Shown here in pieces: positions 39,568 through 60,683 of a stretch of DNA of 64,000 nucleotides; the stretch's first letter is position 1, and each line of letters opens with the position of its first letter. The stretch covers positions 124,001 to 188,000 of the forward strand of contig DATNEW010000027.1 in assembly GCA_035606695.1 (NCBI GenBank), in the 5' to 3' direction. The translations under genes were made by a program, and so were the position numbers. Source of the DNA: Gemmatimonadaceae bacterium (lineage in GTDB: Bacteria > Gemmatimonadota > Gemmatimonadetes > Gemmatimonadales > Gemmatimonadaceae). Under the pieces are notes generated by a model. The model did not search any database and had not been told where the DNA came from. It worked only from the letters and a program-made list of their open reading frames with translations.

Positions 39568-41658
39568 ATGCCCCAAAGAAAAACCGACCGGCGGTCTTCG
39601 GCACGCCGGCTCGAATACATCGTCATCGAGTGCGTTACACCTGAGCTCGACGGCGGCCGTCATTCCGTCAAGCGCATCGTTGGCGACGTCGTCAGCGTCG
39701 GGGCCGACATCATCAAGGAGGGCCACGATCTCGTTGCCGCGCGCGTGATCTATCGCGCGCCGGGCGAGAGCGAGTGGTCTGCCAGCCCGCTGGTCTACGA
39801 CTTCGACAGCGACCGCTGGTTCGGTGCGTTCACGGTCGATCGCATCGGCCGGTGGACGTTCGCCGTGGAAGCATGGACGGACCGCTTCGCCACCTGGCGC
39901 GCGGGGCTCGAGAAGAAAGTGAGCGCGGGGCAGGACGTGCAGCTCGAGCTCGCGGAAGGTGCGCAGCTCGCGCGCACGGCGGCGCGCTCGACGAGGTCCG
40001 CCGCCGCGAAAGCGTCGCTCCTGATGACCGCCAAGCTTCTCGAGGACCGGCGCGACTCGGCGATCGAAAAACGAATTCAACGCGCGCTCGACGAGGACTT
40101 GAGCGCGCTGATGCACGATCACTACAAGCCGTCGGACGTCACGCGTTCTCGCCACGAGCTGACCATCACGGTCGACCGCGAGCGAGCGCGATTCGCGTCG
40201 TGGTACGAGATGTTCCCGCGATCGCAGACGGCGCCGACGCCCGGACAACCGCCGCGCCACGGCACGTTCATGGACGCTGCCGCGCGCCTGCCGCACGTCG
40301 CACAGCTCGGATTCGACGTGGTGTATTTGCCGCCGATTCATCCGATCGGCCACAAGTTTCGCAAGGGAAAGAACAACTCGCTCACACCGGAGCCCGACGA
40401 CGTCGGCAGTCCGTGGGCGATCGGCAACGAGCATGGCGGCCACACGGCGATCGAGCCGGCGCTCGGGACCATCGAGGATTTCGATCGCTTCGTCGAGACC
40501 GCGCATGGCCTCGGCCTCGAGATCGCGCTCGACTATGCGCTCCAGTGTTCGCCCGATCATCCGTGGGTGAAGGAGCATCCGGACTGGTTTCACGTTCGCC
40601 CCGACGGCTCGATCCAGTACGCGGAGAATCCGCCGAAGAAGTATCAGGACATCTATCCGCTGAACTTCTGGTGCGAGGATCGCGAAGGCTTGTGGAATGC
40701 CTGTCGCGACGTGCTCCTCTACTGGATTCGACACGGCGTGAAGATCTTCCGTGTGGACAACCCGCACACGAAGGCGTTCGCGTTCTGGGAGTGGGTCATC
40801 CGCGAGGTGCAGAAGGATCATCCCGACGCGATCTTCTTCGCCGAAGCGTTCACGCGGCCGAAGCGCATGAACGCGCTCGCGAAGCTCGGCTTCACGATGT
40901 CGTACACCTACTTCACGTGGAAGAACGCCGAGTGGGATCTGCGGCCCTATCTCGAGGAGCTGACGCAGACTCCGATGGTGGAGTACTACCGCGGCAATCT
41001 GTTCGCGAATACACCAGATATCTTGAATGAGTATTTAGTAACCGGCGGCCGGCCGGCGTTTCGCATTCGGTTGCTGCTGGCGGCGACATTGTCGCCGCTC
41101 TACGGCATCTACAGCGGGTTCGAGCTCGGCGAGAACGTTCCGGTGCGCCCGGGCAGCGAGGAGTACCTCGACTCCGAGAAGTATCAATTGCGCCCGCGCG
41201 ACTACGCGGCGCACGGCAATATCAACGACGACATTGAGACGTTGAATCGCATTCGGCGCGAGCAGCCCGCGCTGCAGCGCTATGCCAATCTGTCGTTTCA
41301 CACGAGCGAAAACCCGTCGGTCCTGTTCTATCGCAAGGCACCGGTCGATCCCGCCGAGCAGTGGACGGGAACGCGGCCAACGCCGGTGCCGCGCAAGATC
41401 GCGCAATCGCTTGGGCTCGGTCTACCCAGCGGCGCGAGTCATCTGCTCATCGCCGTCGCCACCGATCCGCATCACGTGCAGGAGACGATGGTGCACGTCC
41501 CGATTCACGAGATGGGAATCGACGACGAACAGTCGTACGTGGTGCACGATCTGCTGTCGGGCGCGCGCTACACATGGCGCGGCGTGCGAAACTACGTTCG
41601 GCTCGATCCAGCCCTTCAGCCGGGGCATCTCTTTGTCGTGGAGAATGTATCGTCGTGA
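39568..41658 (+). CDS. glgE: Alpha-1,4-glucan:maltose-1-phosphate maltosyltransferase
   Basis: A 696-residue GH13 subfamily 3 enzyme that extends alpha-1,4-glucan with maltosyl units from maltose-1-phosphate. It has the N-terminal domain with RIVGDVVSVGADIIKEGHD and the GlgE insert VSAGQDVQLEL. The catalytic barrel shows YLPPIHPIGHKFRKGKNN, PWAIGNEHGGH, the nucleophile Asp397 in FRVDNPHTK and the acid Glu426 in FFAEAFTRPK. NTPDILNEYL and GGRPAFRIRLLLAATLSP are family signatures. It is followed at 46 bases by treS and then mak, which make its substrate. A brief AT-rich patch occurs at 41006-41040 (NTPDILNEYLV). Glycogen synthase and GlgC/GlgM are not in the window. Confidence 0.96.
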   Translation: MPQRKTDRRSSARRLEYIVIECVTPELDGGRHSVKRIVGDVVSVGADIIKEGHDLVAARVIYRAPGESEWSASPLVYDFDSDRWFGAFTVDRIGRWTFAVEAWTDRFATWRAGLEKKVSAGQDVQLELAEGAQLARTAARSTRSAAAKASLLMTAKLLEDRRDSAIEKRIQRALDEDLSALMHDHYKPSDVTRSRHELTITVDRERARFASWYEMFPRSQTAPTPGQPPRHGTFMDAAARLPHVAQLGFDVVYLPPIHPIGHKFRKGKNNSLTPEPDDVGSPWAIGNEHGGHTAIEPALGTIEDFDRFVETAHGLGLEIALDYALQCSPDHPWVKEHPDWFHVRPDGSIQYAENPPKKYQDIYPLNFWCEDREGLWNACRDVLLYWIRHGVKIFRVDNPHTKAFAFWEWVIREVQKDHPDAIFFAEAFTRPKRMNALAKLGFTMSYTYFTWKNAEWDLRPYLEELTQTPMVEYYRGNLFANTPDILNEYLVTGGRPAFRIRLLLAATLSPLYGIYSGFELGENVPVRPGSEEYLDSEKYQLRPRDYAAHGNINDDIETLNRIRREQPALQRYANLSFHTSENPSVLFYRKAPVDPAEQWTGTRPTPVPRKIAQSLGLGLPSGASHLLIAVATDPHHVQETMVHVPIHEMGIDDEQSYVVHDLLSGARYTWRGVRNYVRLDPALQPGHLFVVENVSS

Positions 41659-41704
41659 AGAGCGCCGTTTCCATTCGCAGTTCCGCCGCCTTTTGAAGAG
41701 CACG

Positions 41705-43375
41705 ATGCCCGATAACGACTCCTTGTGGTACAAAGACGCCATCATCTATCAGCTGCACATCAAGAGCTACCGCGACTCCAATGCGGACGGCTTTGGTGAC
41801 TTTCGCGGACTGATCGAGAAGCTCGACTACATCCACCAGCTCGGCGCCAACACGATCTGGCTGCTGCCGTTCTATCCGTCGCCGCTCAAGGATGACGGCT
41901 ACGACATCGCGTCGTACGAGGAAATCAATCCGACGTACGGCACGATCACCGACTTCCGCACGTTCCTCGAGGAGGCGCATCAACGGAACATTCGCGTGAT
42001 CACCGAGCTCGTGATCAACCACACGTCGGATCAACATCCGTGGTTTCAGCGCGCCCGGCGCGCGCCAAAGGATTCACCGGATCGCAACTGGTACGTGTGG
42101 AGCGACGACCCGAACAAGTTCGCCGAGACGCGCATCATCTTCACGGATACGGAGAAGTCGAACTGGAGCTGGGATCCCGAGGCGCAGCAGTTCTACTGGC
42201 ATCGCTTCTTCAGCCACCAACCCGATCTCAACTTCGACAATCCCGACGTGCTGGAGGCAGTCAAGAACGTCATGCGCTTCTGGCTGCGCATGGGCGTCGA
42301 CGGCCTGCGCCTGGACGCCATTCCGTACATCATCGAGCGCGAGGGCACGAACTGCGAGAACCTGCCCGAGACGCACGAAGTGCTGAAGGATCTGCGCCGC
42401 GCGCTCGACGCCGAGTTTCCAGGCCGCATCTTTCTCGCCGAAGCCAATCAGTGGCCGAGCGACGTGCGGCCGTACTTCGGCGACAACGACGAATGCCACA
42501 TGGCGTTCCACTTCCCGGTCATGCCGCGCATGTACATGGCCCTGCGCAAGGAAGATCGCACGCCGATCGTGGACATCATGCGGCAGACGCCGGACATCCC
42601 GCCGGAATGCCAGTGGGCGATCTTCCTGCGCAACCACGATGAGCTCACGCTCGAGATGGTGACGAACGAAGAGCGCGACTACATGTATCGCGAGTACGCG
42701 CGCGATCCGCGCATGCGCATCAACGTCGGCATTCGCCGGCGCCTGTCGCCGCTCATGGAAAGCGGCCGACGCCAGATCGAGCTGATGAACGCGCTCCTCA
42801 TGTCGATGCCCGGCACGCCGATCATCTACTACGGCGATGAGATCGGCATGGGCGACAACATCTATCTCGGCGATCGTAATGGCGTGCGCACACCCATGCA
42901 GTGGAGCGCCGATCGCAACGCGGGCTTCAGCGAAGCCGATACCGCCGCGCTCTACTCGCCGCTCATCGTCGATCCGCCGTACGGCTATCACACGGTGAAC
43001 GTCGCGGCGCAGGAACGCGTGCCGACGTCGCTGTTGCGCTGGATGCGCCGCGTCATCGCGGTGCGCCAGGAATACCAGGCATTCGGCCGCGGCACGTGGG
43101 AGCCGGTCGACGCGGCGAATCGCCGAGTGCTCGTGTTCATCCGCCGCTATCGCGACGAAACGATACTGTGCGTCAACAACCTCTCGCGCTTCGCGCAGTA
43201 CGTCGAGCTCGATCTGCACGAGTTCAACGGGATGATTCCGCTCGAGCTGTGGAGCAAGAACTGCTTTCCGCCGATCGGCGAGCTGCCGTATCTCCTCACG
43301 CTCGGACCGCACAACTTTCTCTGGTTCCGCATACTCTCGCCGCAGGTGGCGAAGGAATTCCAGCGGTCGACATGA
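41705..43375 (+). CDS. treS: Trehalose synthase (maltose/trehalose isomerase)
   Basis: A 556-residue GH13 subfamily 16 enzyme that interconverts maltose and trehalose by intramolecular transglucosylation. Sequence shows WYKDAIIYQLHIKSYRDSN, GANTIWLLPFYPSPLKDDGYDI, VINHTSDQHPWFQRAR, the nucleophile Asp204 in GLRLDAIPY, the acid Glu246 in FLAEANQWP and Asp312 in NHDEL. HMAFHFPVMPRMYMAL is a TreS hallmark. The ATG at 41705 is the first plausible start after glgE. The stop overlaps the maltokinase start as ATGA. In the GlgE pathway TreS supplies maltose from trehalose. No C-terminal maltokinase fusion is present, unlike some TreS proteins. Confidence 0.97.
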   Translation: MPDNDSLWYKDAIIYQLHIKSYRDSNADGFGDFRGLIEKLDYIHQLGANTIWLLPFYPSPLKDDGYDIASYEEINPTYGTITDFRTFLEEAHQRNIRVITELVINHTSDQHPWFQRARRAPKDSPDRNWYVWSDDPNKFAETRIIFTDTEKSNWSWDPEAQQFYWHRFFSHQPDLNFDNPDVLEAVKNVMRFWLRMGVDGLRLDAIPYIIEREGTNCENLPETHEVLKDLRRALDAEFPGRIFLAEANQWPSDVRPYFGDNDECHMAFHFPVMPRMYMALRKEDRTPIVDIMRQTPDIPPECQWAIFLRNHDELTLEMVTNEERDYMYREYARDPRMRINVGIRRRLSPLMESGRRQIELMNALLMSMPGTPIIYYGDEIGMGDNIYLGDRNGVRTPMQWSADRNAGFSEADTAALYSPLIVDPPYGYHTVNVAAQERVPTSLLRWMRRVIAVRQEYQAFGRGTWEPVDAANRRVLVFIRRYRDETILCVNNLSRFAQYVELDLHEFNGMIPLELWSKNCFPPIGELPYLLTLGPHNFLWFRILSPQVAKEFQRST

Positions 43376-44823
43376 ACAACGTGCTCGCGGCGCTCGAGTC
43401 ACTGCCTGGCGACGCGCTGCTTGGCTACTTGCAACGCCAGCGGTGGTTCGGCGCGAAAGGCGCGGTGCCTTCGGCCGCGCACGTTCAAGACGCCGTAGTA
43501 CTGCCGTGGGGCGACGGCGCGTTTGCGATCGCGCGCATCGCGGTCGAGTTGGGCGACGGAACACGACAGACATACCAGCTTCCGGTGACGACACGCGCGA
43601 GCGGCGATGCAATCGGCGCGGGCCTGAGCGAAGCGTCCCGCGACGATGATTTTCGTCGCGGACTCATCGACGCACTAAAGCGCGGCGCGTCGGCCGAGAC
43701 GAACGGCCTGAGGTGGATCGCGGAGTCGGCGAGCAACGTCGATCTGCCCGCGGAATCCACAGTTGGATCGGCCGAGCAAAGCAATACGTCGATCGTGATC
43801 GGAGACCGCGCGATCCTCAAGTTGTTTCGCATGCTGAAGCCCGGCGTGCAGCCCGACGTCGAGGTGACGAGGTTCCTGACGCGTGTTGGTTTCGAGAACA
43901 CGCCGAAGCTGTTGGGCAGCATTCGGTTCGAGCGCGGCAACGAAGTGACGACCGCCGGGATGCTGCAGACGTATCTGGCCGGGTCATCCGACGCGTGGAG
44001 TCATGCGCTCGAGACGGGGCGCGCGTACTTCGCGGCGCCGATGAACGTCGAGCCCTCGAACGCCTTTCTCGACGACGCGAAACGGCTCGGCGTGATCACG
44101 CGCAGCCTGCATGAAGCGCTCGCGAGCGACGACGACGATCCCGCGTTCGAGCCCGAGCCGATCGAGCCCGAAGATCTCGACCGCTGGTCGCATCGCACGC
44201 AGCAGAGCATTCGGGATTCACTCGAGTTGCTCGAGCGGCAGCTCCCATCGAAGACGTTTCCCGCCGAGCGGCGCGCGGAAGCCGAGGCGCTCCTGCGCCG
44301 AAAGGATCACTATCTCGGGTGGATCGACGAGATCAACGACTATCTCGGCGACGATGTCGGCGTGCGCATTCGCGTGCATGGCGACTATCATCTCGGCCAG
44401 GTGCTGCGGACGGCGTCGAACGATTTCATGGTCATCGACTTCGAGGGCGAGCCGTCACGGTCGCTGGACGAGCGCCGCGAGAAGACCTCGGCGTTACGGG
44501 ATGTGGCGGGGATGCTGCGCAGTTTTGCGTACGCCGCGGCAACGCTCGGCATGGAGGCGGGGAAGGCGATCGACCCGCGCACGCGCGAGATTCGCATGGC
44601 GCGCTGGGAGCGGGACGTGCGGCTCGCGTATCTCGAGGGGTATCTCTCGGCGGCGGTTGGCGACGAGTCCGACATCCTCCCCGAGGACCAGTCGCACATC
44701 AAGCAGCTCATTGCGCTGTTCGAGACGGAGAAGGCGTTTTATGAGCTTGCGTATGAGCTCAACAACCGTCCGGCGTGGGCGTGGATTCCCATGAGAGGCA
44801 TCTCGAAGCTGTTCACGGCGTGA
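43372..44823 (+). CDS. mak: Maltokinase (Pep2-like)
   Basis: A 483-residue aminoglycoside-phosphotransferase-fold kinase that makes maltose-1-phosphate from maltose and ATP for GlgE. The N-terminal cap has GYLQRQRWFGAKG; the core has NTSIVIGDRAILKLFRML with the ATP-contact Lys, PDVEVTRFL, then the catalytic loop VRIRVHGDYHLGQVLR (HGDxHxxQ) and the metal motif MVIDFEGEPSRSLDERREK, which is diagnostic for Mak among APH-like kinases. The final block is AWAWIPMRGI. Overlaps treS by four bases; together glgE, treS and mak form one transcription unit. After the stop lies the inverted-repeat element at 44846. Confidence 0.95.
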   Translation: MNNVLAALESLPGDALLGYLQRQRWFGAKGAVPSAAHVQDAVVLPWGDGAFAIARIAVELGDGTRQTYQLPVTTRASGDAIGAGLSEASRDDDFRRGLIDALKRGASAETNGLRWIAESASNVDLPAESTVGSAEQSNTSIVIGDRAILKLFRMLKPGVQPDVEVTRFLTRVGFENTPKLLGSIRFERGNEVTTAGMLQTYLAGSSDAWSHALETGRAYFAAPMNVEPSNAFLDDAKRLGVITRSLHEALASDDDDPAFEPEPIEPEDLDRWSHRTQQSIRDSLELLERQLPSKTFPAERRAEAEALLRRKDHYLGWIDEINDYLGDDVGVRIRVHGDYHLGQVLRTASNDFMVIDFEGEPSRSLDERREKTSALRDVAGMLRSFAYAAATLGMEAGKAIDPRTREIRMARWERDVRLAYLEGYLSAAVGDESDILPEDQSHIKQLIALFETEKAFYELAYELNNRPAWAWIPMRGISKLFTA

Positions 44824-44929
44824 GGCGCGGGAAGATAAAAAGCCTACCACGGACAAACGGCGGACAACTGCGGACGGGCACGGAGACCGCGTCAACTGCG
44901 GTCAACTGCCGTTTAGAGACCTTTTTTAA

Positions 44930-44976
44930 GAACACCCTCGGGAGGCTTCAAGAACCGAAGCGGCCCGAGGGTGTTC
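44930..44976. terminator. Inner hairpin 1 of the inverted-repeat element
   Basis: A 13-base perfect stem, GAACACCCTCGGG at 44930-44942 and CCCGAGGGTGTTC at 44964-44976. Inside it a second stem, GCTTC at 44945-44949 and GAAGC at 44957-44961, closes a 7-base loop. A T-run appears 18 bases later (44995-44999), which is too far for a textbook terminator of mak, but the fold is strong in either strand. Confidence 0.6.
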
Positions 44977-45005
44977 CTAAGAAAGAACTGATTCTTTTTG
45001 AACAG

Positions 45006-45040
45006 CCTCGGGATGCTTTGCAGCTCGAAGCATCCTGAGG
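45006..45040. terminator. Inner hairpin 2 of the inverted-repeat element
   Basis: A 13-base stem with one G-T-type mismatch, CCTCGGGATGCTT at 45006-45018 and AAGCATCCTGAGG at 45028-45040, around a 9-base loop. The CCTCGGG core is shared with hairpin 1. Downstream on the plus strand is GATTTCTAGAAAGATTTTC, T-rich in part. Read from the minus-strand peptidase gene, the hairpin lies about 115 bases after its stop. Confidence 0.6.
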
Positions 45041-45153
45041 GATTTCTAGAAAGATTTTCACAACGGTCGTTAACTGCAGTTCACGCCGTCTCCGTGCCCG
45101 TCCGCCGTTGTCCGCCGTTTGTCCGTGGTCAACGGCCCGGGCGCGACGACACC

Positions 45154-46017
45154 TTATCCTCGCACGTCCGCAAACGTATCGCACGCCTTCGGATCCCCGG
45201 AATCAAACCCTTTCCTGAACCACGACGATCGCTGCGCCGACGACCCGTGCGTGAACGAATCGATGTTCACGTGCCCCGTCGCCTGCTGTTGCAGCCGATC
45301 GTCTCCGACCGCCGACGCCGCGCGCAACCCATCGTCGATGTCGCCGGGATCGAGAATGTTCTCATTCTGCATTTCGTGGCCGAACACGCCGGCGTAGCAG
45401 TCCGCCTGTAGCTCCAGCCGCACCGACAGCGCGTTCGCCTCGCCCGGGTTCGACTGCTGTAACCGACGCACTTGGCGATCGAGCCCATTGATGTGCTGCA
45501 CGTGATGCCCCAGTTCGTGGGCAAGCACATACGCTTGCGCGAATTCACCCGGCGCGCCGAACCGCGTACGCAACTCGTCGTAGAACGCCAGGTCGATATA
45601 CACCTTCTCATCGTTCGGACAATAGAACGGTCCCATCGTCTCCTGGCCCACGCCGCATCCCGTCTGTGTCGCGTTGCGATAGAGCACGAGCTTCGCATCA
45701 TGCCACGGCTGGCCGAAGGCGCGTGGCTCGAGGCGCGACCACACCGCTTGCGCGGAGTCGAGCACGAACGACACGAATTGGACTTCGCGTGCCTCTTCGG
45801 GCGACTGCTGCGCCGGCGCGACGTCGCCGCTCGCCGTTTGTTGAGGGCCCGGATTCGTGTCACCGCCGCCGCCCACGAAGTTGCGTCCGAAGATGAGACT
45901 CAACACGATGAGCACCAGCGTTCCACCAATTCCCATTGGCGCCATGCCGAAGCCGCCGCCGCTCGAGCCGCGCCTGTCTTCGATGTTTCCGCTTTCACCG
46001 CCCGGTGTCCACCGCAT
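45154..46017 (-). CDS. Neutral zinc metallopeptidase (YpfJ family)
   Basis: A 287-residue membrane-anchored protease. The N-terminus starts MRWTPGGESGNIEDRRGSS, then a membrane helix (GGTLVLIVLSLIFGRNFVG), a linker, and the peptidase domain with FYCPNDEKVYIDLAFYDEL, the zinc motif HELGHHVQH (His167, Glu168, His171) and LELQADCYAGVF, whose Glu is the likely third ligand. SWFRKGFDSGDPKACDTF closes the protein. This family is widespread and its substrate unknown. The start at 46017 has a GGGAG site and gives the standard MRW N-terminus; the longer upstream frame (to 46425) overlaps the GNAT gene and was rejected. Confidence 0.92.
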   Translation of the reverse strand: MRWTPGGESGNIEDRRGSSGGGFGMAPMGIGGTLVLIVLSLIFGRNFVGGGGDTNPGPQQTASGDVAPAQQSPEEAREVQFVSFVLDSAQAVWSRLEPRAFGQPWHDAKLVLYRNATQTGCGVGQETMGPFYCPNDEKVYIDLAFYDELRTRFGAPGEFAQAYVLAHELGHHVQHINGLDRQVRRLQQSNPGEANALSVRLELQADCYAGVFGHEMQNENILDPGDIDDGLRAASAVGDDRLQQQATGHVNIDSFTHGSSAQRSSWFRKGFDSGDPKACDTFADVRG

Positions 46018-46079
46018 CCCGTATCTCCCGTTATCTCCCGTCAGTTCGGTTCGCTCGACTGCAGTCGAACGCAGGAGAA

Positions 46080-46616
46080 TCACAAGTTTTGCGCCATGAC
46101 GTAGTCGTGCTGCAGATCCGACCCCAACTGGAATGTCTTGACCCCGACGCGCCGAAGCCCGCACTTCTCGTAGAACGCGATCGCGCGCGGGTTCCGTTGC
46201 CAGACCGCGAGCCACAGAACGTCGCACGACCACTCGCGCGCCTGAACGGTGCACGCCCGCATCATCACGTTGGCCACGCCGCGTCCGTGATAGGGTCGGT
46301 CGACGTAAATGCGCTGAATTTCCGCGGGATGCTTTGCATCCACCGATTCCGTGCGGCTGTCGCGCCACAGCATCACATAACCCATCGGCTCGCCAGCATC
46401 GTCTTCGGCGAACCATACGCGGCATCGGTCGTCGGCGAGCTCGGCAGCCTGCGCGTCGGCATGAAAGGTCTGCGCGAGATACGCGGCCATGTCGTCGGCG
46501 GTGTTGGCCGCGGCGAAGGTTTGTTCGAACAATCGCGCGCCGAGGCGTGAGAGGAGCGCGGCGTCATCGGTGGTCGCTCGACGCAGCCGAACGCCAGTCG
46601 GTGTATCGTTGTGCAT
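46080..46616 (-). CDS. GNAT family N-acetyltransferase
   Basis: A 178-residue GCN5-related acetyltransferase. It begins MHNDTPTGVRLRRATTDDAALLSRLGARLFEQTF, has CRVWFAEDDAGEPMGYVMLW, IQRIYVDRPYHGRGVANVMM with the acetyl-CoA-binding RGVAN loop (a Q/RxxGxA variant), and the C-terminal AVWQRNPRAIAFYEKCGLRRVG, which is the usual NxxAxxFYxxxGF block. The acceptor is unknown. The gene follows the zinc peptidase direction (minus strand, upstream of it by 62 bases) and is divergent from treZ across 95 bases, so it is not part of the trehalose unit. Confidence 0.9.
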   Translation of the reverse strand: MHNDTPTGVRLRRATTDDAALLSRLGARLFEQTFAAANTADDMAAYLAQTFHADAQAAELADDRCRVWFAEDDAGEPMGYVMLWRDSRTESVDAKHPAEIQRIYVDRPYHGRGVANVMMRACTVQAREWSCDVLWLAVWQRNPRAIAFYEKCGLRRVGVKTFQLGSDLQHDYVMAQNL

Positions 46617-46711
46617 GATGAAATTTGTACTCGACCGGACGATTGACGCACCAACGATTGGGGCGCGTCTCTTGCTCCTTCCCTGCGTCCATCCAACCCA
46701 CGACGCCGCTC

Positions 46712-48640
46712 ATGAACGACCTCTGGACCCTGCAGCGAGGGGCCCAGCTCCAGCCAGATAATTCGGTTCGATTCTCCGTGTGGGCGCCGCGTGCGAAGCA
46801 GCCGCGCGTGCGCATCGGTCGTGGATCGAACGCGCGCGATCATGTATTGGCGCGCGCCGCCGGAGAGTGTGGCGTGTGGAGCGTGACGGTGCCGAACGTC
46901 GGCGCGAATGCCGAGTACACGTTCGTGCACGACGATGGACGCGCGCTGCCCGATCCCGTGAGTCGGTGGCAGCCCGAAGGTGTGCATGGAGCCTCGCGCG
47001 TCATTCGGCCGGACGCGTTCCATTGGACCGATGTGGCGTGGCGCGGCGTCGCGCTCGACGAATTGGTGATTTACGAATTGCACGTCGGCACGTTCACGCC
47101 GGAAGGCACGTTCGCGGCGATCGTTCCGCGCTTGGTCGAGCTCAAATCGCTCGGCATCTCCGCGATCGAGATCATGCCCGTCGCGCAATTTCCCGGCGAT
47201 CGCAACTGGGGTTATGACGGCGTCGGATTGTACGCCGTGCAGCAGAGCTACGGCGGTCCGAACGAGTTGAAGCAGCTCGTCGACGCCGCGCACTCCGTGG
47301 GTCTTGGCGTCATCCTCGACGTCGTCTACAATCACGTCGGACCGGAAGGCAACTATCTCGACGCGTACGGTCCGTACTTCACCGAGAAATACAAAACGCC
47401 GTGGGGCCGGGCGCTCAACTACGACGATGCGGGCTCCGACGAGGTGCGCCGGTTCATCGTCGACAATGCGTTGTACTGGGTGACCGAGTACCACGTCGAC
47501 GGACTGCGGCTCGACGCGGTGCATGGCATCTTCGATTTCAGCGCGCTGCATCTCCTGCAGGAAATCAGCACCTCGGTGCACGACGAGGCGGCTCGTCTCG
47601 GGCGCGGCGTCGTGGTGATCGCCGAGAGCGACTTGAATGATCCGAAGTTGATTCGCTCGCCGGACGCGTACGGATACGGACTCGATGCCCAGTGGAGCGA
47701 CGACTTCCATCACGCGGTGCACGCGGCGCTCACCGGCGAGCGTAACGGCTATTACGCGGACTTCGGTGGCGTGAGCGCCATCGCCGCGTCGCTTCGGGAG
47801 CCATTCGTCTATGACGGACGGTTCTCACGGCATCGCCACCGGCGCCACGGCGGATCCTCGGTCGGTCTTCCGCGCCGGCGGTTCGTCGTCGCCATTCAGA
47901 ATCACGATCAAGTCGGCAATCGCGCCGAGGGCGACCGGCTATCGCGCACGTTGACGCCGGCGCAGCTTCGGCTCGCCGCGGCGCTGCTGTTACTTTCGCC
48001 CTACGTCCCGCTGGTCTTCATGGGTGAGGAGTACGGCGAGACGAATCCGTTTCACTACTTCATCAGCCACGGCGACGAGGCGCTTGCCACCGCGGTTCGC
48101 GAAGGCCGCCGCAAGGAATTCGAGACTTTCGGCTGGGGCGACGCCGTTCCCGATCCGCAGGCGCGCGAAACGTTCGAGCGGTCGCGCATCGACTGGGCAA
48201 AGCGCCAGGTCGCCGAACATCAGCAACTTCTCATGGTGTACCGCGACCTGCTTGCGCTGCGACGGGAAGAGCCGCTGCTGCGGCCCGACGGCGCGCGCGT
48301 GTCGGTCGCGGATGGCGACCCCGGCTGGATTACCTTGCTTCGGGAGCCGCTCGACGACGACGCGGGAAGCGGTTGGGGTGAATTACTCGCGGTCTTCAAC
48401 TGTTCGGGAGAGGCGGTGAATGTCCCGGTACCGGCGCCCGATGCGCGCGCATGGACCCTGCGTCTGTCGACGGATGCGTCCGGTTACGGCGGCGCGGACG
48501 AGGTCGTTCCGGCGATTGCGGCCGGTCCGGCGCCGGGCGCGCCGCGCCGGCTCCTCGAACCGGAGCGCGATGCCAGCCGGCGCTCGGTGCGCATGCCGCC
48601 GTGGACCGCCGCGCTCTATGCGGCAATCACAAATTACTAG
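46712..48640 (+). CDS. treZ: Malto-oligosyltrehalose trehalohydrolase
   Basis: A 642-residue GH13 subfamily 10 enzyme that releases trehalose from the reducing end of malto-oligosyltrehalose made by TreY. An N-terminal CBM48-like domain (VRFSVWAPRAKQPRVRI) precedes the barrel with ELHVGTFTPEGTF, IEIMPVAQFPGDRNWGYDGV, ILDVVYNHVGPEGNYL, nucleophile Asp268 in GLRLDAVHGIFD, acid Glu305 in VIAESDLNDPKL and the third Asp in QNHDQVGNRAEGDRL. The Asp-rich loops and length match TreZ of about 600 residues. The ATG at 46712 lacks a strong ribosome site but starts the conserved domain. It opens the second glucan unit and is followed by glgX after 14 bases. Confidence 0.96.
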   Translation: MNDLWTLQRGAQLQPDNSVRFSVWAPRAKQPRVRIGRGSNARDHVLARAAGECGVWSVTVPNVGANAEYTFVHDDGRALPDPVSRWQPEGVHGASRVIRPDAFHWTDVAWRGVALDELVIYELHVGTFTPEGTFAAIVPRLVELKSLGISAIEIMPVAQFPGDRNWGYDGVGLYAVQQSYGGPNELKQLVDAAHSVGLGVILDVVYNHVGPEGNYLDAYGPYFTEKYKTPWGRALNYDDAGSDEVRRFIVDNALYWVTEYHVDGLRLDAVHGIFDFSALHLLQEISTSVHDEAARLGRGVVVIAESDLNDPKLIRSPDAYGYGLDAQWSDDFHHAVHAALTGERNGYYADFGGVSAIAASLREPFVYDGRFSRHRHRRHGGSSVGLPRRRFVVAIQNHDQVGNRAEGDRLSRTLTPAQLRLAAALLLLSPYVPLVFMGEEYGETNPFHYFISHGDEALATAVREGRRKEFETFGWGDAVPDPQARETFERSRIDWAKRQVAEHQQLLMVYRDLLALRREEPLLRPDGARVSVADGDPGWITLLREPLDDDAGSGWGELLAVFNCSGEAVNVPVPAPDARAWTLRLSTDASGYGGADEVVPAIAAGPAPGAPRRLLEPERDASRRSVRMPPWTAALYAAITNY

Positions 48641-48654
48641 TTAAGAGATACTAA

Positions 48655-50778
48655 ATGCGCGTTTGGCCAGGCAATCCCTATCCCCTCGGCGCCACATGGG
48701 ACGGACAGGGAGTCAACTTCGCGATCTTCTCGGAGAACGCCACCGGCGTCGAGCTCTGCTTGTTCAGCGCCGCCGACGACGGCACGGAGTCCGACAAGAT
48801 CATGATGCGTGAACGCACCGACCAGGTCTGGCATTGCTACCTGCCCGACGTGCGGCCCGGACAGTTTTACGGCTTCCGCGTGCACGGGCCATACGATCCG
48901 AATGCCGGCAATCGATTCAATCCCGCCAAGCTGCTCATCGACCCGTACGCGAAGGCGATCACGGGGTCGATCAAATGGAGCAACGCGTTGTTCGCGTACA
49001 AAGTCGGCAGTTCGGACGAGGATCTCGAGCCCGATCCCGACAACAGCGCCGGCGGCGTCCCGAAGTCGGTCGTCATCGATCCCGCGTTCACGTGGGAAGA
49101 CGACCGTCCGCTGCACATTCCGTGGAATCGCACGATCATCTACGAGTGCCACGTCAAAGGGATGACGAAGCTGCACCCCGACGTCCCGGAAGGGTTGCGC
49201 GGCACGTATCTGGGCTTATGCAGCGATCCGATGATCGAGTACTTCCTCGGTCTCGGAATTACCGCGATCGAGCTGCTGCCGGTGCATCAGTTCGTCGTCG
49301 ATCGCCATCTCGCGGAGCGCGGCCTCACCAACTACTGGGGCTATAACTCGATCGGCTTCTTTGCGCCCGACGTGCGCTATGCCGCCAAGGGGCTCGGCAA
49401 TCAGGTGTACGAGTTCAAGAGCATGGTGAAGACGCTTCACTCGGCGGGGATCGAAGTGATTCTCGACGTCGTGTACAACCACACCGGTGAAGGGAATCAT
49501 CTTGGGCCGACGCTCTCGCTGCGGGGCATCGACAACCAGGCGTATTATCGGCTCGCGCCGAACAAACGGTACTACACGGATTTCACCGGCACCGGCAACA
49601 GTCTCAACATGCAGCACCCGCGCACCATCCAGCTCATCATGGATTCGCTGCGCTACTGGGTGAACGACATGCATGTGGACGGCTTTCGCTTCGACCTGGC
49701 GCCGGTGCTCGCGCGGGAATTGCACGACGTCGACAAGCTTTCATCGTTCTTCGACATCATCCATCAGGATCCGACGCTGGCGAACGTCAAGCTCATCGCC
49801 GAGCCGTGGGATGTCGGACCCGGCGGCTATCAGGTCGGCAACTTCCCGATTCGGTGGGCGGAATGGAATGGCCGCTACCGCGACGTCATTCGCCACTACT
49901 GGAAGGGCGATCCCGGCTACGTGCCCGAGCTCGCGTCGCGGCTCGCCGGATCGAGCGACATCTACGAGCCGAGCGGCCGCGGCGCGTACGCCAGCGTGAA
50001 CTTCATTACCGCACACGACGGCTACACGATGTACGACCTCGTGAGCTACGAGCAGAAGCACAACGAGGCGAACGGCGAGAACAACAACGACGGACACAAC
50101 GACAACATCAGCCGCAACTGGGGCGTCGAGGGCGAAACTGACGATTCCAAGATCCTCGACATGCGATTCCGCCTGATGCGTGACCTGATCGCGACATTAG
50201 CCTTCTCGCAAGGCGTACCGATGCTGTCGCACGGCGACGAGATCGGACGCACGCAGTCCGGCAACAACAACGCGTACGCCCAGGACAACGAGCTCACCTG
50301 GATGCACTGGGATCTCGATGAGCGGCGCAAACAGCTCCTGGCGTTTACACGGAAGTGCTTGAACCTGCGGCACAGCCACGCCGTGTTACGGCGGCGGCAC
50401 TTCTTTAGCGGCGAACCAACGTTCAAGGGTGGGCCGAAGGATCTCTGCTGGATTCGGCCCGACGGACAGGAAATGAATGACGGCGACTGGCACAACGGCG
50501 AGAACCACGCGCTCGGCATGCTCATCTATGGCGAATCCACCGATGAGACGGACGATCGCGGCCGTCCGATCAAGGGCGACACGCTGTTGTTGATCACCAA
50601 CGCCACCGATCAGGCAATCGCGTTCACGATGCCGACGATCGAAGGCGATGGCATGTGGGCCGAGATGATCGACGCGGCGCATCGCGAGCTGCGCGTCATT
50701 ACGGGGCAGGTCGAAGTTTCCCCCTACTCGCTCGCGCTGCTGCGCTATGGCGAGAACAGACGAATGACCGATGGCTGA
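48655..50778 (+). CDS. glgX: Glycogen debranching enzyme (GlgX/TreX type)
   Basis: A 707-residue GH13 subfamily 11 isoamylase-type enzyme that cuts alpha-1,6 branches. It starts MRVWPGNPYPLGATWDGQG (CBM48 domain) and has RVHGPYDPNAGNRFNPAKLLIDPYAKAI, ECHVKGMTKLHP, LLPVHQFVVDRHL, VVYNHTGEGNHLGPTLS, nucleophile Asp347 in GFRFDLAPVLARE, acid Glu383 in LIAEPWDVGPGGYQVGNFP and ITAHDGYTMYDLVSYEQKHNEANGE. It feeds linear chains to TreY, MalQ and GlgP. The last bases overlap the glgB start by eight bases, so translation is probably coupled. Confidence 0.97.
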   Translation: MRVWPGNPYPLGATWDGQGVNFAIFSENATGVELCLFSAADDGTESDKIMMRERTDQVWHCYLPDVRPGQFYGFRVHGPYDPNAGNRFNPAKLLIDPYAKAITGSIKWSNALFAYKVGSSDEDLEPDPDNSAGGVPKSVVIDPAFTWEDDRPLHIPWNRTIIYECHVKGMTKLHPDVPEGLRGTYLGLCSDPMIEYFLGLGITAIELLPVHQFVVDRHLAERGLTNYWGYNSIGFFAPDVRYAAKGLGNQVYEFKSMVKTLHSAGIEVILDVVYNHTGEGNHLGPTLSLRGIDNQAYYRLAPNKRYYTDFTGTGNSLNMQHPRTIQLIMDSLRYWVNDMHVDGFRFDLAPVLARELHDVDKLSSFFDIIHQDPTLANVKLIAEPWDVGPGGYQVGNFPIRWAEWNGRYRDVIRHYWKGDPGYVPELASRLAGSSDIYEPSGRGAYASVNFITAHDGYTMYDLVSYEQKHNEANGENNNDGHNDNISRNWGVEGETDDSKILDMRFRLMRDLIATLAFSQGVPMLSHGDEIGRTQSGNNNAYAQDNELTWMHWDLDERRKQLLAFTRKCLNLRHSHAVLRRRHFFSGEPTFKGGPKDLCWIRPDGQEMNDGDWHNGENHALGMLIYGESTDETDDRGRPIKGDTLLLITNATDQAIAFTMPTIEGDGMWAEMIDAAHRELRVITGQVEVSPYSLALLRYGENRRMTDG

Positions 50779-53092
50779 GAAAAAGAAACCGACGGACGAC
50801 GCGAAACCGCGCGCCCCGAGAAAAAAGGCCGCGCCCAGAAAGAGCGCGGCAAAGAAAGCGGTGGCCGCCGTCGCTGCCCCGGAGCGCGCCGCGACGGAAA
50901 TCTCCCGCGCCGACATTGAGCGTTTGATCAATGGCGACCACGCGAGTCCGCATTCGTTCCTTGGCGCGCATCCGTTGACGCTGTTCGGCGAGCAAGGCGC
51001 GGTCGTGCGAACGCTTGCGCCGAACGCGAAGCGCGTCGAGTGCGTGCTGCAAGACGGGCGCTCGGTCGAGCTGGAGCGCATCGCGGAAGGCCTGTCGGAT
51101 TTGTATCAGTGTTTCATCCCGGGAATGACGCCGCCGTTCGCGTATCGCTTGCGCTTTACGTATCACGACGGGGCGGTGTGGGAGCGCGACGATCCGTATC
51201 GCTTCCTGCCGACGGTCGGCGAGATGGATCTCCATCTCTTCAACGAGGGCACGCATCGCGCGTTGTGGAAGAAGCTTGGTGCGCACGTACGCACGGAAAA
51301 CGGCGTGTCCGGCGTGAGCTTCGCCGTGTGGGCGCCGAATGCCAAGCGCGTGAGTGTCGTCGGCGATTTCTGCGGATGGGACGGCCGAATTTTTCCCATG
51401 CGCATGCTGGGCAGCTCCGGCGTGTGGGAATTGTTCGTCCCTGAAATTCAGCCCGGTGCGTTGTACAAGTTCGAGTTGCTGACCCGCGAAGGATTGATTC
51501 GCGTGAAGACGGACCCCTTCGCGGCAAAGCAGGAGCAGGCGCCGGGGACCGCGTCGATCGTGCAGCTCGAGGACAACTACGAGTGGAGCGACAACGCGTG
51601 GATGTCGTCGCGCCGCAAGACGGATCTCGTTCGCTCGCCCCTTTCGATTTACGAAGTACACCTCGGCTCGTGGGCGCGCGTTCCCGAAGACGGTAATCGC
51701 GCGCTGTCCTATCGTGGGATCGCGCCGCGGCTCGCCGAGCATGTGAGGAATCTCGGGTTCACGCACGTGGAGCTGATGCCGATCATGGAGCATCCGTTCT
51801 ACGGATCGTGGGGCTATCAGGTGAGCGGGTACTACGCGCCGACATCGCGGTATGGTACGCCCGACGATTTTCGATACTTCGTCGATGTGATGCACCAGCA
51901 CGGCATCGGCGTCATTCTCGACTGGGTGCCGGCGCACTTCCCGAAAGACGACTACGCGCTTCGCCGCTTCGACGGCACCGCGCTCTACGAGCACGAGGAT
52001 CCGCGGCTGGGCGAGCATCCCGATTGGGGAACGCTCATCTTCAATTACGGGCGCAATGAGGTGCGAAACTTCCTCGTCGCCAACGCGCTGTACTGGTTGA
52101 ACGACTTTCACTGCGACGGCCTGCGCGTGGACGCCGTCGCGTCGATGCTGTACCTCGACTATAGTCGCAAAGCCGGGCAATGGATTCCCAACGCCAAGGG
52201 CGGCCGCGAGAATCTCGAGGCGATCGACTTTCTGCGGCAATTCACCGAAACGGTCGCCGCCGACGCGCCGGGGTGCGTCACGATCGCCGAAGAATCCACC
52301 GCGTGGCCCGGGGTGACGACGCCGGTGAACGAGGGCGGACTCGGATTCACCTTCAAGTGGAACATGGGTTGGATGCATGACACGCTCGCATACTTCGCGC
52401 GCGATCCCGTGCACCGTCGCTTTCATCAGGACCGGCTCACGTTCGCGATGCTCTACGAGTACAGCGAGCGATTCATCATGCCGCTGTCGCACGACGAGGT
52501 CGTGCACCTCAAGGGTTCGCTGCTGCACAAGATGCCGGGCGACGATTGGCAGAAGCTCGCCAATCTCCGCGTGCTGTATACGTACATGTTCACGCGGCCC
52601 GGCAAAAAGTTGCTGTTCATGGGAAGCGAGCTCGCGCCGTGGACGGAATGGAATCACGACACGAGTCTCGATTGGCATCTGCGCGACTACCCCGGGCATG
52701 CCGGCATGGAGCGCTTCGTCAGTCGTCTCGCGTCGGTCTACAAGCAGGAACCGGCCTTCTGGCGCGAGGACCACAGCTGGGATGGTTTCAGTTGGATCGA
52801 CGTGGCCGACAAGGAGAACTCCGTCGTATCGTACGTCCGCCGCGCCGGTGACGCGCACGCCGTCGTCGTGCTGAATCTCACGCCGGTGCCGCGCGAGCGA
52901 TATCGCATTGGTGTGCCGTCCGCGGGACCATATCGGATCGCGTTGTCGAGCGACGATGCGGAGTGGGGCGGCGGCGGCTACGGCTCGGCATCCGAGCTCG
53001 AGACGCAGCGGTCCGGCTTTCATGGATACGAGCAGTCGCTCGAGGTCACCCTTCCGCCGTTGGCGGCGTTGATTCTGAAACCAGCGCGCTAA
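50771..53092 (+). CDS. glgB: 1,4-alpha-glucan branching enzyme with basic N-terminal tail
   Basis: A 773-residue GH13 subfamily 9 enzyme that makes alpha-1,6 branches in the glucan built by GlgE. It contains the CBM48 region (FLGAHPLTLFGEQGAVV), FAVWAPNAKRVSVVGDFCGWDGR, YEVHLGSW, HVELMPIMEHPFYGSWGYQV, nucleophile Asp454 in GLRVDAVASMLYLDYSR, acid Glu507 in TIAEESTAWPGVT and PLSHDEVVH. The first 40 residues are not part of the fold: they are Lys/Ala/Pro-rich (for example APRKKAAPRKSAAKKA), like a histone H1 tail, and look disordered. The start is directly supported by an ATG and the overlap with glgX; the stop overlaps malQ (TAATG). Confidence 0.97.
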   Translation: MAEKKKPTDDAKPRAPRKKAAPRKSAAKKAVAAVAAPERAATEISRADIERLINGDHASPHSFLGAHPLTLFGEQGAVVRTLAPNAKRVECVLQDGRSVELERIAEGLSDLYQCFIPGMTPPFAYRLRFTYHDGAVWERDDPYRFLPTVGEMDLHLFNEGTHRALWKKLGAHVRTENGVSGVSFAVWAPNAKRVSVVGDFCGWDGRIFPMRMLGSSGVWELFVPEIQPGALYKFELLTREGLIRVKTDPFAAKQEQAPGTASIVQLEDNYEWSDNAWMSSRRKTDLVRSPLSIYEVHLGSWARVPEDGNRALSYRGIAPRLAEHVRNLGFTHVELMPIMEHPFYGSWGYQVSGYYAPTSRYGTPDDFRYFVDVMHQHGIGVILDWVPAHFPKDDYALRRFDGTALYEHEDPRLGEHPDWGTLIFNYGRNEVRNFLVANALYWLNDFHCDGLRVDAVASMLYLDYSRKAGQWIPNAKGGRENLEAIDFLRQFTETVAADAPGCVTIAEESTAWPGVTTPVNEGGLGFTFKWNMGWMHDTLAYFARDPVHRRFHQDRLTFAMLYEYSERFIMPLSHDEVVHLKGSLLHKMPGDDWQKLANLRVLYTYMFTRPGKKLLFMGSELAPWTEWNHDTSLDWHLRDYPGHAGMERFVSRLASVYKQEPAFWREDHSWDGFSWIDVADKENSVVSYVRRAGDAHAVVVLNLTPVPRERYRIGVPSAGPYRIALSSDDAEWGGGGYGSASELETQRSGFHGYEQSLEVTLPPLAALILKPAR

Positions 53093-55221
53093 TGAGCTCA
53101 GCGCTTCGCGAGCTTGCCGATCGCGCCGGCATCATTCCCGAGTACGTCGACCAGACTGGCCGAGAGACGCGCGTCGCGAGCGACGAGACGCGGCGGTTGC
53201 TGCTCGCGGCGATGGGACTCGACGCGAGCAGCGACGACGCGGCGCGCGAGACACTCGCGGCACTGGATGCCGAAGAACGCGACGCGCTCATCGATCCGGT
53301 GCGCGTCGTCGAGATCGACGGCGACGACGCGCGCCGGGTTCGCGTGCGTGCGCCGGCGTCGCGCGCCAGCAGCGGTCCATGGCGGCTCGAGGTGGTGCTC
53401 GAGAATGGCGAGCGTGCGGTGACCGAAGGGCCGTGGCGCGGCGACGCAACCATCGAGCTGAGTCTCCCCGAGCTGCCACTCGGCTACCACACGCTGCGGC
53501 TCTCGATGAATGCCGGCGGCAGCGAATGGAGTGCCGAGCAGCGGCTCATCGTCGTGCCTTCACGCTGCGTGGTTCCTGATGACCTGTTGAACGGCGACAA
53601 TGCGTTCGGCGTAATCGCGAACCTCTATACGGTACGCAGCACGACGAATTGGGGTGTTGGCGATCTCTCTGATCTCGCGACCCTGGCGCGATGGAGCGGC
53701 TCGGTCGGCGCGGATTTCGTTGGCGTGAATCCATTGCACGCGTTGATGAACCGAGGCCACGAGATCAGTCCGTACAGTCCCGTCAGTAGATTGTTTCGCA
53801 ACCCGATCTATATCGATCCGGCGCGCGTTCCCGAGGTGCACGCCGACGCGGCGCTGCGCGAGCGAATTGCATCGCCGGAGTTCCAGACCGAGGGCGAGGC
53901 GCTGCGTGAGTCGCGCGACGTGCGCTACGCGCAGGTGATGGCGGTCAAGGGCCTCGTGCTCGATGCGGCATTCCGGTTCTTTGATTCGCAATCGCGTGAC
54001 GGCGATCGCGCGCGCGCGTTCCAGGCGTATTGCCGAGCCAACGAGCCCGCATTGACGCGCTTCGCGCTGTGGATGGCGCTCGCCGAAGAGCACGGCGGCG
54101 ATTGGCGGCGGTGGCCGGACGACTTGCGCGATGCGCGCGGCCCGGCGGTCGAAGCCGCGCGAACGCGCTTGACTCAGCGCGTCGAATATCACCGATGGCT
54201 GCAGTTCGAGGTGGATCGGCAGTTAGGGGATGCCTGCGTCGCCGCGCGCGAGGCGGGGATGCGCATTGGCCTCTATCAGGACCTCGCGATCGGCACGTCG
54301 CCGAGCGGGGCGGATGCGTGGGCGTTTCCGGAGCTGTTCGTGCGCGGCGTCAGCATCGGCGCGCCGCCCGACCCGTATTCCGCCACGGGACAGAATTGGG
54401 GCCTGCCGCCGATCTTTCCGCGCGCACTCAAACGCAACGGCTACGCGTACTTCATAGATCTCATACGCAGTGGCTTTCGGCATGCCGGTGCGTTGCGGAT
54501 CGATCACGTGATGGGCCTGTTTCGCCTCTTCTGGATTCCAGAAGGAAAGAGCGGCGCCGACGGGGCGTACGTGCGCTCACCGTCATACGACTTGCTCGGC
54601 ATCGTCGCACTGGAGAGCGTGCGTCATCGCGCGATCGTCGTCGGCGAAGACCTTGGCACCGTACCGCCCGACGTGCCTCCGGCGCTGAATAAATGGGGCG
54701 TGTTGTCGTCGAAGGTGCTGTACTTCGAGCGCGGTGACCATGGCTCGTTCCGTCCGGGCGCCCAGTATCCGCGCCTGTCGCTCGCGACCGCGAACACGCA
54801 CGACATGCCGACGCTCGCGGGTTTCTGGCAGGGACGCGACATCGACGTCCGGCGGAGCGTAGGGCTCATCGAGAGTGACGACGACGCCGACCAGGCGCGT
54901 GCCGACCGTGAGGTCGATCGCGCGCAATTGCTGCGACGGTTGTCCGAGGAGCGCGTGCTGCCGGAAGACCACGTGTCGCCGACGTCGGCCGAGTTGCGCG
55001 CGGCGGTGCACGGGTTTCTGTGTCGCTCGCCCGCGCAGCTCGTTGGGCTGTCGCTGGACGACGTCGCGGGCGAAACGGACGCGGTCAACGTTCCCGGGGT
55101 CGGTCCCGACAAGTTCCCGAGTTGGACGCGCAAGATGCGCGAGCCGCTCGAGATCATCATGACGAGCGAGACGGCCGCGATCGCGATGCGCTGTGACGGG
55201 AGACGCGGTGTCCGGCCGTAA
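53092..55221 (+). CDS. malQ: 4-alpha-glucanotransferase (amylomaltase)
   Basis: A 709-residue GH77 enzyme that transfers maltosyl or longer units between malto-oligosaccharides and releases glucose. The N-terminal extension (ALRELADRAGIIPEYVDQTG, DETRRLLLAAMGLD) is that of E. coli-type MalQ. The catalytic part has WGVGDLSDL, DFVGVNPLHALM, SPYSPVSRLFRNPIYID, GQNWGLPPIFP, nucleophile Asp471 in ALRIDHVMGLFRLFWIPEG, acid Glu519 in VGEDLGTVPPDV and TANTHDMPTLAGFW. It overlaps glgB at TAATG and treY by 14 bases, a sign of coupled translation within the second glucan unit. Confidence 0.96.
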   Translation: MSSALRELADRAGIIPEYVDQTGRETRVASDETRRLLLAAMGLDASSDDAARETLAALDAEERDALIDPVRVVEIDGDDARRVRVRAPASRASSGPWRLEVVLENGERAVTEGPWRGDATIELSLPELPLGYHTLRLSMNAGGSEWSAEQRLIVVPSRCVVPDDLLNGDNAFGVIANLYTVRSTTNWGVGDLSDLATLARWSGSVGADFVGVNPLHALMNRGHEISPYSPVSRLFRNPIYIDPARVPEVHADAALRERIASPEFQTEGEALRESRDVRYAQVMAVKGLVLDAAFRFFDSQSRDGDRARAFQAYCRANEPALTRFALWMALAEEHGGDWRRWPDDLRDARGPAVEAARTRLTQRVEYHRWLQFEVDRQLGDACVAAREAGMRIGLYQDLAIGTSPSGADAWAFPELFVRGVSIGAPPDPYSATGQNWGLPPIFPRALKRNGYAYFIDLIRSGFRHAGALRIDHVMGLFRLFWIPEGKSGADGAYVRSPSYDLLGIVALESVRHRAIVVGEDLGTVPPDVPPALNKWGVLSSKVLYFERGDHGSFRPGAQYPRLSLATANTHDMPTLAGFWQGRDIDVRRSVGLIESDDDADQARADREVDRAQLLRRLSEERVLPEDHVSPTSAELRAAVHGFLCRSPAQLVGLSLDDVAGETDAVNVPGVGPDKFPSWTRKMREPLEIIMTSETAAIAMRCDGRRGVRP

Positions 55222-57802: not shown

Positions 57803-57911
57803 GTTGCTGTCGTTCGTCTCACCGCACTCCCTCCTTGCGCCAGGCTGATCCGTTCCGCTGGCACGAAATACTCGGGGCAACGCCATTTTTCATTTGCTTG
57901 CCGAGGCCTGA

Positions 57912-59627: not shown

Positions 59628-59666
59628 GCCGCGTTTCCATTCGCCGCTTCCACTCGCTCTTAGCCT

Positions 59667-60683
59667 TTAGGCCGTAGCCTCCTCGAACTGCTCTTCCATC
59701 TCCGCGGTCTTTCGCACCGCCCTGATCGCCGTTCCGCCCGCCACGACGGCGCCCAGGACGATGTAGATGTAAAAAGTGTAAAACCTCCACCAGAGCAACG
59801 CCGCGGCGAACAGCGCCGGCCCGATCACGCCGGCCAGTGCGGCGCGAAACGCCAGCTCGACCGCGCCGCCGCCGCCCGGCGCCGGCACTACCGCCGCGCC
59901 ATACAACAATCCGAGCGGCCACAATGCCAGCGGCGCAAGCGGCGCCGACGCTCCGGCGCCGAGCACCAATGCCGGCAACACGCAAAGACGCATGGCGACG
60001 TGAACGACGGACATGGTATACGACGCCGCGGCCCAGCGCATGTCGATGTGCTTCACGCTGTCCACTGTCGAGCGGACCTGCGCGAACCAGCGCTGAATGA
60101 GCTCCCACCGCCGGCCGCCGAGCCACATGCGCCTCGCCCATCGCGGAGCATCGTCGCCGACGTGGCGGCGCGACAACGTCACCGCCACGACCGCGATGCC
60201 GATCACGAACCCGGCATACCCGCCCACCACGCCGACCAGCGCGCCGAGCACCACTCCCGCGTGCCTGAACACGATCGCGACGACCAACACGACCGTGCCG
60301 AGCGACAGCGCCTCGAGAAATAATTCGGCGAACAACACGACGAGGGCGCTCGGCGTCGGCACACCGGCTTCCGCGAGCACGAGAAAACGAGCCGGCTCCG
60401 CCCCTGAACGCGCCGGCGTGATCGACGCACCGAAATCACCGGCCAACGTCGTGCGGAGTGCCGTGGTGAATCGCAGCTCGATGTTCGCGGCTTTCGCGCT
60501 CCACGTGATCTTGAGCGAGCGCGTGAGGATCTCGATCACGACCGCGGCGATCGCCAGCGCGTGCGCGCGCAGCGGCAGTCCGATGGCGCTGCCCGCACGC
60601 CACCAGCTCACGATGAAGTACGCCGACACCCCGATCACCGCGATGAACGACGCGATGGTAAAAGCCCAGCGCTTCCAGGTCAT
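59667..60683 (-). CDS. Lysylphosphatidylglycerol synthase TM region/UPF0104 family protein
   Basis: A 338-residue polytopic protein with about eight hydrophobic helices, starting WKRWAFTIASFIAVIGVSAYFIVSWW. It has LTRSLKITWSAKAANIELRFTTALRTTLAGDFGASITPARSGAEPARFLVL, the signature block of the AglD/UPF0104 group (the GDFGAxITPxRxGxEPAR element), and a late LYGAAVVPAPGGGGAVELAFRAAL. These proteins are membrane flippase-like or glycosyl/aminoacyl-lipid transport domains without the synthetase part; exact function unknown. The start at 60683 follows the fold; the 29 upstream residues of the longer frame overlap the hairpin and were dropped. It is read towards glgP, convergently. Confidence 0.82.
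   Translation of the reverse strand: MTWKRWAFTIASFIAVIGVSAYFIVSWWRAGSAIGLPLRAHALAIAAVVIEILTRSLKITWSAKAANIELRFTTALRTTLAGDFGASITPARSGAEPARFLVLAEAGVPTPSALVVLFAELFLEALSLGTVVLVVAIVFRHAGVVLGALVGVVGGYAGFVIGIAVVAVTLSRRHVGDDAPRWARRMWLGGRRWELIQRWFAQVRSTVDSVKHIDMRWAAASYTMSVVHVAMRLCVLPALVLGAGASAPLAPLALWPLGLLYGAAVVPAPGGGGAVELAFRAALAGVIGPALFAAALLWWRFYTFYIYIVLGAVVAGGTAIRAVRKTAEMEEQFEEATA

Follow-up and report, generated by a model that had tools for sequence, protein, structure and literature searches.

Dispersed palindromes are well known; they are usually short and, where they have been explained, are tied to RAYT transposases. REP sequences and REPINs are built on a palindrome of 20–40 bp with a conserved GTAG/CGTC tag, and integron attC sites carry RYYYAAC/GTTRRRY core sites at the ends of the palindrome that stands behind each cassette gene. 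A survey of REPs located these extragenic palindromes chiefly after coding regions and in the spaces separating unidirectional or convergent genes, and it connected both REPs and some of the TIR families with Y1 transposases (PMC3733652). The TIR families of TIRtrons (with TIRYT transposases) are moderately abundant long inverted repeats, found in Acidobacteria among others (PMC3733652). In the available part of a study of 40 genomes, SLS families are presented as repeated, mostly intergenic sequences with a common predicted secondary structure (Cozzuto et al. 2008; PMC2267715). Inverted repeats of E. coli are enriched just behind stop codons, including repeats that are not at mRNA ends (PMC6060812). 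The literature covered, outside which most subscription journals fall, yielded no account of such elements in Gemmatimonadota.

The locus considered here lies in a window of 64 kb (the whole stretch of DNA analysed) on contig C27 of a 5.9-Mb draft genome in 50 contigs, referred to below as G000. It is a near-palindrome of 284 bp (44846–45129) between two convergent genes, and it is an element of a REP/MITE-like type that lacks a defining mark of each class: it shows no target-site duplication, and it has neither the tag nor a RAYT. Like REPs, BIMEs and REPINs, which are thought to be non-autonomous and form species-specific families, the copies are dispersed extragenic palindromes situated mainly behind genes, a stop codon being the nearest gene end in 34 of 40 copies in G000. 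However, REPs measure 20–40 bp, whereas the unit here measures 120–284 bp and ends in ACCACGG/CCGTGGT, with no GTAG/CGTC tag noted. A Pfam search for Y1_Tnp (PF01797), in which positive controls worked, gave no match in G000 or in the congener G002, and a RAYT-driven REPIN or TIRtron was rejected because the genome has no Y1_Tnp.

The element also resembles the TIR families of TIRtrons in forming a moderately abundant family of long inverted repeats. TIRtrons, however, are tied to Y1 transposase genes, some with GGGGWSAS, and the single Y1-type transposase gene found in the genus (congener G001, L203:1100–2030) is flanked, like the TIRtrons of PMC3733652, by inverted repeats of the GGGGTCAGACCC type, which are unrelated to the element. 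With MITEs it shares a short, non-coding unit with terminal inverted repeats, many copies (about 43–55) and unoccupied sites in relatives, but it differs in lacking a target-site duplication and in being palindromic over nearly its whole length. As for a related autonomous element, no pair of arms enclosing a gene was seen among the matches listed from this draft assembly of 50 contigs. SLS families are likewise repeated, mostly intergenic and of common predicted structure, but separable arms and core do not figure in the available part of their description (PMC2267715). The inverted repeats of E. coli share the enrichment directly after stop codons, but these are short, for the most part share no sequence relationship and do not appear in that description as one dispersed family (PMC6060812). 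An integron attC site was rejected, since the ends are ACCACGG/CCGTGGT and convergent genes flank half of the copies.

Structure of the locus and the terminator question

The element occupies most of the space between an upstream gene on the + strand (43372–44823), presumably encoding a maltokinase-like protein, whose stop codon lies 22 bp from it, and a convergent gene on the − strand (45154–46017), which we take to encode a neutral zinc metallopeptidase with an HELGHH motif and whose stop codon lies 24 bp away. It has no coding capacity, and a palindrome scan of the entire 64-kb window found no other palindrome. The preliminary description had placed a nested inverted repeat at these coordinates, with two strong hairpins sharing a CCTCGGG core and a left arm built of words in register, and all of this holds. 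The outermost 42 bp (44846–44887 and 45088–45129) are complementary with one mismatch, and the complementarity extends to 83 nt at 83% when mismatches are allowed.

From the outside inwards, the parts, none of which is assigned to a strand, are as follows. The left outer arm (44846–44891) begins with the end motif ACCACGGAC and closes with a conserved 15-mer (44877–44891; here GGCACGGAGACCGCG, one mismatch to the family), and the right outer arm (45084–45129), its reverse complement, carries the 15-mer at 45084–45098 and the end motif GTCCGTGGT. The CGGA words of the left arm start at 44850, 44861, 44871 and 44881, with a mirror set in the right arm, and over 26 copies their spacing is 10 or 11 bp in 106 of 142 intervals. 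A left middle segment of GTCAACTG words (44892–44917) and a right one of GTTAACTGCAGTT words (45062–45083) lead from the arms to two inner hairpins with CCTCGGG in common, one at 44921–44985, with a T-run on its 5′ side and an A-run on its 3′ side, and one at about 44991–45058, an extra hairpin that only three copies possess. The predicted RNA fold of the whole element reaches −200 kcal/mol, compared with −96 ± 5 kcal/mol for shuffled sequences (z = −20.5), and that of the opposite strand gives z = −18.6.

In an intrinsic (Rho-independent) terminator a GC-rich stem leads directly into a T-run. The element shows the reverse order on either strand, i.e., the T-run precedes the stem and the A-run follows it, and a T-run of at least five follows the stem in only one of 26 copies. 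A scan for intrinsic terminators over 44700–45300 returned no site; the same scan over 40001–60000 returned no more sites than shuffled sequence and is thus a weak detector in this genome, so the orientation of the runs is the stronger argument. It rules out an intrinsic or bidirectional terminator of the canonical type, and with no 3′ T-run on either strand, the hairpins do not resemble ordinary terminators.

A dispersed family in one genome

With the element as query, about 40 separate places were found in G000, and the family consensus added three, giving at least 43 copies. The arm 15-mer GGCACGGAGACGGCG, with at most one mismatch, occurs 56 times per strand (reversed control, 0 and 1), from which we estimate about 55 elements in the genome, a figure drawn from motif counts in which not every arm was inspected. 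About 41 copies were extracted. The copies, more than 40 in number, lie on many contigs with differing flanks and share the ends ACCACGG/CCGTGGT. They fall into three size classes. First, a few copies (L075, L068, L078) consist of arms only and measure about 120 bp. Second, arms around one hairpin, about 215 bp, are the norm, and most copies measure 205–236 bp. Third, arms around two hairpins, about 280 bp, are found in the window copy and in two copies on contig C9. One copy (L077:378–592) has the family arms but, where the usual core would stand, a GTCATTCCGAGC...GCTCGGGATGAC hairpin; GTCATCCTGAGCGAAGCGAAGGATC hairpins, similar to that of L077, stand alone in G002 (L132:16988–17056).

Two copies, at C26:282469 (L065) and C22:2327 (L071), share 94% identity along 244 bp, and their flanks are unrelated. 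The match begins two bases outside ACCACGG on one side and extends to a CCGTGGT on the other, where it takes in one extra outer word of 29 bp. This end-to-end match between unrelated flanks suggests that the element spreads as a unit, a mode of dispersal that we regard as well supported by these comparisons. Pairwise identity among copies has a median of 69%, and most copies appear to be old. A stretch of about 590 bp at 87% identity, including a copy of the element, is shared by the start of contig C45 (L059:1–582) and the end of contig C27 (L062:2961–3548), apparently a segment duplicated at two contig ends.

Target-site duplications, named in the preliminary description as a mark to look for, were not found: direct repeats of 1–8 bp occur at chance level around 33 copies, and the young pair L065/L071 has none. 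When the ends are pooled, 94% have A or C as the next base outward, suggesting that the true end may lie one or two bases further out.

With genes called by our own codon-usage script rather than a standard caller, 21 of 40 copies lie between convergent genes, compared with 7 among the 48 gene pairs of the window (Fisher p = 0.0002), and divergent placements are rare. For the elements of congeners treated below, a stop codon is nearest in 31 of 36, and 15 of 36 are convergent, compared with 22 of 167 background pairs (p = 0.0002).

Empty junctions and differing arms in congeners

In G002 and G001 the two genes of the window junction are both present, their stop codons 16 and 30 bp apart, respectively, with no palindrome between them, while in G005 the convergent neighbour is another gene, the gap is 35 bp and the element is absent (all gaps counted by hand on the sequence). 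Since the element is absent from three congeners, insertion at the window site appears more likely than deletion; deletion in the relatives is a possible origin of the empty junctions. Five further junctions of G000 elements allowed a comparison. The site is plainly empty at one of them (L066/L132), small palindromes of other kinds, unrelated to the family, stand at two (L051/L158, L056/L187), and at two there is an element from a different family (L046/L161, L054/L190). In the reverse direction, two G002 elements (L158, L187) have unoccupied sites in G000. One of these junctions (L046:3120–3580 / L161:3180–3720) is a single gene junction with an element of the G000 family in one species and of the G002 family in the other, which could be either an insertion hot spot or a case of arms replaced in place. 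At another, where the G000 element stands between divergent genes (L051:2936–3256), G002 has a palindrome of GTAGACGGGTAGACAGG words at the orthologous spot (L158:5821–5976).

Other genera of the same family contain no copy, and two congeners gave only partial matches of about 33–52 nt. Among 298 genomes of the phylum, only G002 matched a core pattern that was strict and says little about looser relatives, and an exact-pattern search of contigs returned 13 stretches, most of them inside genes or apparently unrelated. Among the rest were two contigs of a Gemmatimonadaceae MAG; G001 matches the MAG Gemmatimonadaceae bacterium GZL_HY_2_bin.4 along one shared locus, and this match, with the assignment of G001 to the same genus, probably places the window in Gemmatimonadaceae. 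The search for copies in the genome and its relatives proposed in the preliminary description thus returned at least 43 in G000 and none at the window junction in G002, G001 or G005. Of the readings offered there, that of a mobile palindromic element family gains support from the many copies with common ends, from this site unoccupied in three congeners and from the young pair with unrelated flanks.

Within 253 kb of G002 scanned for palindromes, one had the same layout (L117:1888–2120); used as query, it matched at least 30 places in G002 and none in G000. The full G002 unit measures about 290–330 bp. Its core (TTTTTCTTTGGAACAGACGCTCGGGACGC...) looks similar to the G000 core in an alignment, and its arms are dissimilar. 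Loci in G001, G004 and G005 hold the G002-type core in other arms (CGCAGAG, CGGAAT and CGGACT words), and three loci within G002 itself (L184, L186, L187) have CACGGACACGG-like arms around the common core. Since the G002-type core is found in differing arms, core and arms behave as separable modules; the congener loci were chosen for likeness to the G002 element and the cross-species matches lie mainly in the core, so that conservation of the core is partly built in.

Proposed movement, 3′-end function and protein binding

We consider it likely that the element belongs to a dispersed palindrome family that is lineage-specific, non-coding, non-autonomous and modular in build. Such an element would spread without an enzyme of its own, by a process that leaves no target-site duplication, with the conserved ends and the arm 15-mer as putative recognition sequence and the inner hairpin or hairpins as a presumably separable module. 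Insertions would persist where they are least harmful, i.e., after stop codons and most of all where genes converge. Whichever side a transcript came from, its 3′ end would bear the same very stable hairpin, which could slow 3′ exonucleases, by analogy with what has been proposed for REP sequences. Against this reading stand the age of most copies and the searches that found neither a target-site duplication nor a candidate mover; the two orthologous junctions that hold elements of different families in two species could reflect in-place replacement rather than movement, and the covariation of the inner hairpin suggests upkeep of a structure beyond the need of a passive selfish repeat.

This covariation was seen in 26 aligned single-hairpin copies, six of which have AU for CG at columns 100/141 and eight AU for GC at columns 107/134. 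The variable pairs of the hairpin fit better within a copy than across copies (0.73 vs. 0.59; 0 of 1000 shuffles). In contrast, two-sided changes were looked for in the 15-mer arm helix of the same 26 copies and none was found, and the variable words of an arm fit the opposite arm of their own copy little better than they fit the arms of others (a value that 123 of 2000 shuffles attain). The compensatory changes in the hairpin and the uncoupled arms make the hairpin look maintained as structure and the arms as sequence. Self-correction of the palindrome, e.g., by template switching at imperfect palindromes, could be another source of the hairpin covariation. The compensatory changes would fit the structured RNA from read-through suggested earlier, but Rfam gave nothing at the gathering threshold, only sub-threshold hairpin matches such as mir-4798 (26 bits vs. 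75).

The same covariation, together with the very stable fold on both strands, would fit a functional 3′-end element under selection, i.e., a non-canonical bidirectional terminator or an mRNA 3′-end stabiliser for convergent genes that was spread by duplication because it is useful. We regard this reading as unlikely. The location directly after stop codons, so often convergent, and the congeners with the same layout and position in other arms agree with it, but passive tolerance accounts equally well for the location, a copy stands at only about one in 100 genes (about 55 copies in 5.9 Mb), and the congeners manage without one at the window junction. Of the two functions, termination would in addition have to proceed with reversed runs and without an intrinsic terminator in the region.

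A good deal less probable is that the element is a putative protein-binding DNA site, at the nucleoid or a domain boundary, in which CGGA words every 10–11 bp would put the same helix face to the protein. The regular word spacing and the nearly invariant arm 15-mer, whose pairing shows no within-copy coupling, lend indirect support to this reading and to the nucleoid or recombination site envisaged earlier. However, the invariance also fits transposase recognition or common descent, the arms of G002 are entirely different, and no binder is known. That the region is a chance-evolved terminator in a single copy, without covariation or wider meaning, which the preliminary description kept as its null case, can be dismissed almost completely, as the copies number more than 40 and lie on many contigs in differing surroundings, the fold reaches z = −20.5 and the inner hairpin has compensatory changes.

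Beyond the lineage-specific, mobile palindrome preferred here, a wider reading is put forward tentatively, with the balance leaning slightly against it, namely that the genus as a whole has modular palindromes in which a recognisable hairpin core sits in arms of 9–12-bp words that are swapped wholesale between species and sometimes within a genome, with each species multiplying a combination of its own after stop codons and spreading it by a mechanism tied to no known transposase type. The case matters because families within one genus agree in layout and resemble one another in the core while differing in the arms; to this are added unoccupied sites, one sharply bounded young pair and the absence of a RAYT from the two best-covered genomes, G000 and G002. 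It makes testable what moves the elements and why turnover is faster in the arms than in the core, and it may explain part of the word-built palindromes in the intergenic DNA of other Gemmatimonadaceae.

Palindromes built of words but without the element core were also found in G020, G026, G004 and G005. Long intergenic ones occur in G020 (L215:6242–6322, L214:15037–15129, L215:4789–4879), G004 (L237:10348–10586) and G026 (L212:18076–18190). Their words measure 6–10 bp (GGGACTC, GGGCAAGA, CACGCTC, CCGAAACTG, CACAGAT), and the palindromes of these three genomes look like a wider unnamed class.
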